Shown: piece after piece, positions 8,927 through 18,705 of the stretch
Layout of the letters: each line of letters opens with the position of its first letter
How positions within the stretch are numbered: position 1 is the stretch's first letter
From: a virus
IMG/VR virus record: IMGVR_UViG_3300001680_000200
Span: 1 to 36,194 of that record
Length of the DNA stretch: 36,194 bases
Reading direction: 5' to 3' (one strand)
Notes under the pieces: model-generated
Seen by the model: the letters and a program-made list of their open reading frames with translations, nothing else
What the model was told of the DNA's origin: nothing
The model's database searches: none
Program-made: the position numbers and the translations under genes

Positions 8927-9153
8927 GTGAATCAAAAGTTAAGCACCTGGTGCTTAAACGACATCCAACTTTGAAAGGTTACTTAATTATTTGTGATGAA
9001 GAATCTGGATTGCCATTAGCTGGGCAAAAAGCAGTACAGATGAACAGTAATGCTAGTGATGGACCAGCCACAATAACAGTAACTTTCGAAGCTTATGGTC
9101 GTAATGGTGTTCGCTTAGTAAGCGATGAACCTAGGGCCAAAGAGGAAAAATAA
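8923..9153 (+). CDS. Hypothetical protein, 76 aa
   Basis: The start overlaps the Mu F-like stop (ATGA at 8923), with GAGG about 10 bases upstream. The sequence is predicted mostly beta (VKHLVLKRHPTLKGYLIICD, then TITVTFEAYGRNGVRLVSD) with a charged C-terminal tail. No family is recognised. Its tight coupling to the Mu F-like gene suggests a head-related or accessory role, which is inference. Confidence 0.7.
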   Translation: MSESKVKHLVLKRHPTLKGYLIICDEESGLPLAGQKAVQMNSNASDGPATITVTFEAYGRNGVRLVSDEPRAKEEK

Positions 9154-9335
9154 TGGTAAAGGTAATTAAGCCAGGTAAATTGCCTGAGGACACTATTCAT
9201 GAGATTACTTGTCACAATTGCAAATCTGACTTGGAGTTTAAAGAAAGTGAAGCCCGCATTTTTAACCACCGAAATGAAATTAATTTAGTTATAACTTGTC
9301 CCGTTTGTAAGAAAGAACTCGGGAAAACAAAGTAA
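9153..9335 (+). CDS. Small zinc-ribbon protein, 60 aa
   Basis: The start overlaps the previous stop (TAATG). Four cysteines, in the pairs CHNC (20 and 23) and CPVC (49 and 52), are spaced as in a zinc ribbon, with a short beta-like segment between. Such single-domain ribbons usually bind nucleic acid or a protein partner. Nothing in the sequence shows which applies here. It ends the portal-MuF block and is followed by a terminator. Confidence 0.75.
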   Translation: MVKVIKPGKLPEDTIHEITCHNCKSDLEFKESEARIFNHRNEINLVITCPVCKKELGKTK

Positions 9336-9353: not shown

Positions 9354-9376
9354 AGCACCTTCGGGTGCTTTTTTTA
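9354..9376 (+). terminator. Intrinsic terminator
   Basis: AGCACC-TTCG-GGTGCT with seven T. The loop is a UUCG tetraloop. The ribosome binding site of the next gene follows directly. Confidence 0.85.
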
Positions 9377-9388
9377 TGTGAGGTCATC

Positions 9389-9892
9389 ATGACAAAGCAA
9401 CCGCTAACACTTCAAGAGCTAGTGCAAAATGTTGAATATTTCAACGTGGACCAAGCATCACCAGAAGCACTACCTAAACGCATTATATGCATCTTAAAAC
9501 TTCACTCTGGAGTGCAAGTAAACGGCGAGTATTTGATACCTGAAGGCTCACCAGTTGGTGATTACAATCCGTTTGCACTTACAGCAGCCATTGAAAATTT
9601 AAAACAGCTCGGGTTTGAAATTATTGAACCACCTTCAGATCCACAAGTGATCGAAGGTGAGGCGGTTGAGGTTGGCCAGAATTTAGATGAGCCATCAAAG
9701 TCACCAGGTGTACAGTCGATTGAAGCGATTTCATCACCTTATATTCAGACGGTTGAAAACTCATATGATGCTCATCATGCAAATCTTCATTCTATTGAAG
9801 TATTGACCTCACTTTTGAAAGCTCCTCGGTTAAATAACAAAGTACAGGAATCAACCAATAATAAGCTTATTGAACTGATTGAGAGCCTTTAA
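9389..9892 (+). CDS. Hypothetical protein, 167 aa
   Basis: ATG 9389 with GAGGT 5 bases upstream is chosen over an upstream start at 9365 that lies inside the terminator T-tract. The N-terminal 80 residues look like a compact domain that ends LKQLGFEIIE. A flexible, acidic, proline- and serine-rich linker follows (residues about 85-125), then a helical C terminus (HANLHSIEVLTSLLKAP to NNKLIELIESL). No family is recognised. It is framed by terminators on both sides and precedes the Acb2/Tad1-like gene, so it is an independent cassette that could be accessory rather than structural. Confidence 0.65.
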   Translation: MTKQPLTLQELVQNVEYFNVDQASPEALPKRIICILKLHSGVQVNGEYLIPEGSPVGDYNPFALTAAIENLKQLGFEIIEPPSDPQVIEGEAVEVGQNLDEPSKSPGVQSIEAISSPYIQTVENSYDAHHANLHSIEVLTSLLKAPRLNNKVQESTNNKLIELIESL

Positions 9893-9929: not shown

Positions 9930-9951
9930 AGCACCTAAAGGTGCTTTTTTT
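9930..9951 (+). terminator. Intrinsic terminator
   Basis: AGCACCT/AGGTGCT (9930-9936 and 9939-9945) with seven T. Confidence 0.85.
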
Positions 9952-9964
9952 GTGAGTATAAAAA

Positions 9965-10585
9965 ATGTCTAAGAAGTTATTAGCATTATCAATGGTTGCG
10001 TATATCGGCACTAAATCAGTATTAGCAGTGCCTATGTCACGTGGCGAATACAATGAGTACCAAGGTTGGCAAATTCCTGAAAATGAAGATCCAGCAGATC
10101 CAGGCTATTTGATCGAGTACAAAGATGGTGGCAAGGCTAATCATCCAGATCATGAAGGTTATATCTCTTGGTCACCAAAGGATGTTTTTGAACATTCATA
10201 TCAACCAGATGGTATTCAAAATTGTGTAATGGGCCGTGAAATCCATAAAGATGATAACGAAGTAACGGTTTTCCATAACGAAACAGTTAAAACCCGAGAC
10301 GGTGAGCAGTCTCTTGAACCAGGACATTTCTATGATGTTGTAGCTGGAGATTCACTTACTCCAATTCAATTCCAACTTGGTCCAGTTAAGGAAGTTGGAG
10401 TTAATGGCATCACGAATGAAGCGTTAATTGCGATTGTTCTACATCGTTTACGTGTTTTGAATGAAAAGTTTCCTTGCCGCGAAAATTCACTTGCTATTAC
10501 TAATATTGAGCAAGGTCAAATGTGGCTAGAGCAACGTACCCGAAATCGTCAGAAGCGTGGTGTTGAAGGTTTTAACATCGCATAA
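9965..10585 (+). CDS. Acb2/Tad1-type hairpin-domain protein (candidate cyclic-nucleotide sponge)
   Basis: 206 residues in two parts. Residues 12-81 (YIGTKSVLAVPMSRGEYNEY ... EGYISWSPKDVFEHSY) match a phage module that I recall as an N-terminal partner of several anti-defence-like domains, including the DUF2829/Tad2 type. Residues about 145-203 (NGITNEALIAIVLHRLRVL, CRENSLAITNIEQGQMWLEQ, then RQKRGVEG) match the helical hairpin of Acb2/Tad1 proteins, with the pattern REx(S/A)LAxTxxExxxMWL. Acb2 and Tad1 bind cyclic nucleotide or cADPR-type signals and block CBASS or Thoeris. Many phages carry this domain in the capsid operon without a tested function. The N terminus looks weakly signal-like, but homologs start near YIGTK, so it is probably cytoplasmic. 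The domain call is from motif memory; function is inferred. Confidence 0.65.
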   Translation: MSKKLLALSMVAYIGTKSVLAVPMSRGEYNEYQGWQIPENEDPADPGYLIEYKDGGKANHPDHEGYISWSPKDVFEHSYQPDGIQNCVMGREIHKDDNEVTVFHNETVKTRDGEQSLEPGHFYDVVAGDSLTPIQFQLGPVKEVGVNGITNEALIAIVLHRLRVLNEKFPCRENSLAITNIEQGQMWLEQRTRNRQKRGVEGFNIA

Positions 10586-10603: not shown

Positions 10604-10626
10604 AGCGTCCTAATGGGCGCTTTTTT
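10604..10626 (+). terminator. Intrinsic terminator
   Basis: AGCGTCC-TAAT-GGGCGCT (one G-U pair) followed by a run of T. Confidence 0.75.
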
Positions 10627-18666: not shown

Positions 18667-18682
18667 ACAAGTAGTAATAAAA

Positions 18683-18705
18683 AAGCACCTTAGGGTGCTT
18701 TTTTT
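18683..18705 (+). terminator. Intrinsic terminator
   Basis: AAGCACC-TTAG-GGTGCTT followed by T. First of two terminators between the lipoprotein and tape measure genes. Confidence 0.85.

Follow-up and report, generated by a model that had tools for sequence, protein, structure and literature searches.

A predicted Tad1 sponge behind a shared N-terminal module in a probable moron of an Acinetobacter-type phage

Results

The gene lies among head genes and is bounded by terminator-like hairpins

The window, by which we mean the whole stretch of DNA that was analysed, is a virus record of 36 kb (36,194 nucleotides). Its nearest relatives with a named host came from Acinetobacter genomes, so an Acinetobacter-type host is likely for this phage. 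The gene starting at 9965 was found in the order minor head, 9965 gene, scaffold, major capsid, together with the following features:

9930..9951, + strand: terminator-like hairpin AGCACC-TAAA-GGTGCT plus T-tract, directly 5' of the gene (stem-loop 9930-9945)
9952..9956, + strand: probable ribosome-binding site GTGAG, 8 nt 5' of the ATG, with no variation among 15 leaders
9965..10585, + strand: whole gene, N-terminal module plus predicted Tad1, 206 aa (ATG at 9965, stop codon at 10583-10585)
9965..9997, + strand: hydrophobic leader MSKKLLALSMV, residues 1-11, in Acinetobacter versions only (low AlphaFold confidence)
9998..10201, + strand: shared N-terminal 'YIGTK...SWSP' module, residues 12-79 (phrog_872; predicted beta-alpha-beta-beta-alpha)
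10220..10582, + strand: complete Tad1 domain as predicted from PDB profile match, AlphaFold and Foldseek, residues 86-206
10223..10372, + strand: predicted beta-sheet part of Tad1, residues 87-136 (five modelled strands; full-length alignment of 53 Tad1 sequences)
10415..10558, + strand: predicted two-helix hairpin of Tad1, residues 151-198 (Pfam, PDB phmmer, AlphaFold models)
10604..10626, + strand: terminator-like hairpin plus T-tract, 3' of the gene (stem-loop 10604-10621)

The open reading frame is real and under purifying selection. Compared with seven homologues, dN/dS was about 0.05-0.1 (NG86) and was low across both modules, values that are approximate because the higher dS estimates were saturated. 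Some 31 IMG/VR contigs encode relatives of the whole protein, with identities of 80-100%. The start codon at 9965 is supported because GTGAG is invariant at its distance from the ATG. The frame and the motifs quoted in the first-pass annotation were all found as given, with YIGTK at residues 13-17, GYISWSPKDVFEHSY at 65-79, RENSLAITNIEQGQMWLEQ at 172-190, and RGVEG at 198-202.

The region holds 10 terminator-like sites where 2.8 were expected. The upstream hairpin was located about 20 nt 5' of the ATG in versions with Tad1 as well as in those with Tad2, and 97% of its cells were paired, with compensatory changes in two of the five counted pairs, all of this compensatory support coming from one divergent sequence (L140); shifted pairings failed. 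A promoter search returned no good sigma-70 match and one weak site at 9834-9862, within the upstream ORF. Because no convincing promoter was found, expression would need read-through, antitermination or an unrecognised promoter. With terminator-like hairpins on both sides, the gene has the appearance of a moron and not of a member of the capsid operon, being a terminator-bounded insert among structural genes that moves independently of its neighbours. The first-pass annotation had placed it inside the capsid operon, which holds for its position among the head genes and is called into question by the terminator-like hairpins directly before and after it. The simple co-expression with the capsid genes that was also proposed is doubtful, since T-tract hairpins bracket the gene and the upstream one is conserved.

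Several small genes and repeats were found nearby. A GCACC-loop-GGTGC-T6 hairpin is repeated at 9354-9374, 9930-9950 and 18679-18704. Copies stand 5' of the 9965 gene and of the phrog_31105 ORF next to it (9365-9892, start at about 9389). This ORF occurs in some relatives but not in others, and might be another moron. The same small-gene cluster includes a zinc-ribbon-like ORF of 60 residues with two CxxC pairs (9153-9335), which matched no Pfam or NCBIfam family at cut-off.

Residues 86-206 are predicted to form a complete Tad1 domain

When a profile made from the Tad1 alignment was searched against the PDB, it matched CmTad1 (8kbb) at E=7e-39, with 8-120 of the 121 positions aligned; for CbTad1, E was about 2e-28. 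The single sequence matched the 8kbb Tad1 at E=8e-17 (PDB phmmer), and phrog_2428 was matched over residues 98-204 (E=1.6e-38). The Pfam hairpin family PF24729 gave E=1.6e-5 and 25.5 bits, slightly below the curated cut-off of 27 bits, under which the Tad1 relatives L048 and L052 likewise fall. A search of the window protein for Tad2 (PF11195) gave no match. The Tad1 alignment (n=53) covers the full extent of the domain, and none of its invariant positions is missing from the window protein, with F136, Q137, G139, N147, G148, E152, N174, R191, T192, R195 and G202 all kept. The family-invariant loop and helix motifs in this alignment, FQxG, NG, REN, RTxxR and the VEG tail, were also all present.

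The full-length AlphaFold monomer model was poor across residues 82-147, which was fixed by using a Tad1-only alignment. The resulting Tad1-only monomer model had a pLDDT of 91 and consisted of five strands followed by two helices. All 19 PDB fold matches with E<0.001 were Tad1 chains (Foldseek, TM 0.64-0.80), either apo or bound to gcADPR, cADPR, cA3 or cAAG. For the full-length model, PDB matches besides Tad1 carried no meaning, and the search of viral models gave few good matches, mostly to module-bearing or unnamed proteins, from which no function was gained.

By homology and predicted fold, residues 86-206 are a full-length Tad1, and Tad1 rather than Acb2. Acb2, a hairpin-only protein (Vs.4 group), was ruled out by the full Tad1 beta domain and the Tad1 structure matches. 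Both share the Acb2/Tad1 helical hairpin family PF24729, which T4 Vs.4 (Acb2) matches far better than the window protein does (7e-20), but Acb2 is without the beta domain, whereas the window protein matches Tad1 along its whole length. Because Vs.4 is a shorter hairpin protein (PMC10097602), we filed the protein under Tad1.

The Acb2/Tad1-type hairpin proposed in the first-pass annotation stands far beyond chance by these searches. It was borne out by the profile comparison, strongly for phrog_2428 and below the cut-off for PF24729, as well as by the predicted Tad1 fold, which includes the two-helix hairpin. A middle segment of about 60 residues had been described as unrecognised; the alignment, profile, AlphaFold and Foldseek results instead point to Tad1's own beta domain, and a full-length Tad1 is predicted in place of a lone hairpin interrupted by an unrelated segment. 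The proposal was thus correct and erred on the side of caution.

The N-terminal module occurs with several partner domains

The N-terminal module was modelled confidently (pLDDT mostly 85-97, AlphaFold). It had no match in searches of Pfam and NCBIfam, and no relative in the PDB when searched by sequence and by profile. Its conserved aromatic and polar positions are M24, Y29, N30, W35, Y66, S68, W69, P71 and F75. The module also occurs as a stand-alone protein of about 70-80 aa (L115, L124, L129, L170). The possibility that it is a remote form of the 'RKKPV..GEFYPCKPDIF' phage module was dropped, as profile comparison gave a probability of 0.7%. The tail of that widespread RKKPV-type module (phrog_419/1810) is joined to Tad1 at L256:3-485, possibly making the module a second carrier. 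In Staphylococcus phage SN8 (L262:493-1094) a small RKKP-module gene adjoins a TIR-domain gene beside the integrase.

The leader ahead of the module resembles a signal peptide (MSKKLLALSMVAYIG..VLA) and was also observed in L036, L039, L042, L045, L092, L140 and L275. Leader hydropathy was 1.6-2.6 in the Acinetobacter versions vs at most about 1.1 in homologues from other hosts. Cleavage of the leader would take away the first strand of the module.

Among the viral and genome contigs scanned, module records came from Acinetobacter, Burkholderia, Halomonas, many Bacillota, Verrucomicrobia and Kiritimatiellae. The domains behind it were Tad1, as in the window, Tad2 (PF11195), crAss001_48 (PF21825), N4 gp49/Sf6 gp66 (PF13876) and WDGH (PF25311). 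Tad2 bears out the earlier suggestion that the module partners other anti-defence domains. Locus counts by local HMMs were 84 for Tad1, 49 for Tad2, 22 for crAss001_48, 17 for gp49/66 and two for WDGH; these counts contain duplicate fetches and come from a query biased to Acinetobacter. Within the genus Acinetobacter, 11 of 176 genomes had the module, with Tad2 in seven, crAss001_48 in three and Tad1 in one.

Some proteins carry two cargos behind the module: Tad2 then crAss001_48 in L136, crAss001_48 then Tad2 in L137, and gp49/66 then Tad2 in L166. In phage N4, gp49 consists of the module and Tad2, and the adjoining gp48 is a gp49/66-family protein. A free-standing gp49/66 gene was located near a module gene at about ten distinct loci, and in L051 a module-gp49/66 gene is followed directly by a Tad1 gene. 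We classed the crAss001_48 partner as an orphan family; its identification as Acb2 was rejected, since T4 Vs.4 is hit by PF24729 but gives no match to PF21825, and nothing in the PDB matched the partner. Long N-termini ahead of Tad1 in L206, L208, L211 and L218 were rejected as fusions, as they represent out-of-gene read-through in stop-to-stop frames. Two further arrangements were seen: the order is reversed in L161:2611-3204 (Halomonas), with the gp49/66 domain N-terminal of the module, and separate Tad2 and Tad1 genes adjoin on one phage contig (L246:1727-2728).

Cargo domains are exchanged behind the module at one locus

Two sequences, L030 (module-Tad1) and L110 (module-Tad2), represent the same prophage locus. 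Their upstream flanks are 88% identical over 2511 bp, and the leader and module are 80% identical up to codon 75-76, beyond which the DNA is unrelated. Identity resumes 11 nt past the L030 stop codon, with a downstream flank of 2361 bp at 87%. In L110 the exchanged segment is the Tad2 domain plus a gp49/66 gene. In this one clear allelic pair, Tad1 and Tad2 with the gp49/66 gene have been exchanged behind a retained module.

In the wider set, the gene remains between the minor-head and scaffold genes, and the module is 91-100% identical among Tad1 versions. Versions with Tad2 occupy the same gene slot in L110 and L118, and probably in L140. In some prophages, identity of the neighbours falls to about 35% for terminase, 28% for portal, 57% for scaffold and 30% for major capsid. 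This conservation of the gene while adjacent structural proteins diverge argues for the behaviour of a mobile moron.

Discussion

We give a probability of roughly 0.8 to the reading that a tailed phage or prophage of Acinetobacter type carries the 9965 gene as a moron, and that the gene encodes a Tad1 sponge behind a constant carrier module. The protein is a new member of the known Tad1 family. Its predicted likeness to the solved members (CbTad1 7uav/7uaw/8smd; CmTad1 8kbb-8kbd) extends over a complete beta domain, helical hairpin and C-terminal tail, and the invariant residues and predicted fold are alike, but it is about 30% identical to them and has an extra N-terminal module of ~80 residues. 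Tad1 hexamers, which are built of three dimers, have six pockets that take up gcADPR or cyclic dinucleotides, and cyclic trinucleotides bind at two additional sites (PMC12043709); this capture blocks Thoeris and CBASS effectors (PMC12043709). By analogy with the family, the window protein would form a hexamer and sequester ThsB-made gcADPR as well as CBASS cyclic di- and trinucleotides, such that ThsA- and CBASS-type effectors would stay untriggered and abortive infection would not follow. A survey of 175 Acinetobacter genomes for two domains found the CBASS cyclase domain SMODS in 36 of them and the ThsA sensor STALD in four. Because SMODS is common and STALD rare in Acinetobacter, the protein may be directed more often at CBASS; the rarity of STALD likewise suggests that Thoeris, as judged by this sensor, may not be the main target. 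Counting against this explanation, the N-terminal module could alter oligomerisation or block the pocket, and a signal-peptide-like leader in the Acinetobacter versions would fit poorly with a cytosolic sponge; the promoter search, too, turned up none belonging to the gene itself.

The module might instead bind a nucleotide or other ligand as an anti-defence domain in its own right, so that these proteins would be sponges for two signals. Conservation of its aromatic and polar positions, the stand-alone copies and the tandem sponge fusions are consistent with such a role, but no relative of known function was found by structure or sequence, and we consider it unlikely. Quite unlikely, too, is that the carrier or the position among head genes serves to load Tad1 into the capsid, from which it would be injected and act before new phage proteins are made. 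The precedent is phiKZ gp184, a Tad1 whose N-terminus is extended. It has been validated as an injected inner-body protein (PMC10449902, PMC13282480), is listed as orf184 among Tad1 (PMC12043709), and is described as acting against CBASS and Thoeris (PMC13282480). It resembles the window protein in having a C-terminal Tad1 behind an extension and matches the window Tad1 and the same Tad1 profile (phrog_2428), but the match is confined to the Tad1 part, and its extension is unmatched by the module. The 9965 gene does have its place among the head genes, after minor head and before scaffold; in unrelated phages (L124, L164, L138), module genes are likewise found in the interval from portal to scaffold, and purely late expression would be late for a sponge. 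Many other module genes, however, adjoin lysis genes (L097, L101, L122) or other non-head genes (N4 gp49). It is highly improbable that the fusion represents a relic, either degenerate or regulatory, whose Tad1 has ceased to bind nucleotides: the slightly low PF24729 hairpin score would agree with decay, but known Tad1 relatives fall under the same cut-off, all invariant residues are retained, and dN/dS is low.

On the preferred reading of a Tad1 sponge behind a carrier, the latter might contribute a constant function, such as support of the oligomer, a second ligand site or localisation. It might also provide the homologous stretch at which recombination replaces sponges as host defences change. 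The Tad2/DUF2829 (PF11195) module proteins, including N4 gp49, have the same N-terminal carrier, and in L110/L118 the same slot, but their C-terminal sponge is unrelated, and solved Tad2 is a homotetramer, not a hexamer. A constant carrier module with several sponge or orphan partners and cargo exchange at one locus appears to be new. Neither the module nor any swapping of sponges was mentioned in the papers found by an open-literature search that stopped short of the key Tad1 and Tad2 papers.

More tentatively, the module may serve phages and prophages of several bacterial phyla as a carrier for anti-defence domains in general. On that view the crAss001_48 (PF21825), gp49/66 (PF13876) and WDGH (PF25311) domains would be nucleotide sponges, or counter-defence domains of another kind, that have so far gone unrecognised and that recombination exchanges at the module end; the module may dock its cargo to one shared site, for instance the virion. 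Tad1, Tad2 and Acb2 were previously studied as stand-alone sponges, and here one module of ~70 residues fronts predicted Tad1, Tad2 and three orphan families that are common in phages. Should it mark anti-defence cargo, it would supply a sequence tag with which to search for new inhibitors of nucleotide-signalling immunity. A role would then also be suggested for N4 gp48 and proteins of the Sf6 gp66 type, which carry no functional assignment in the libraries searched. It also makes testable the question of whether sponge specificity is switched by domain swaps on a fixed carrier.
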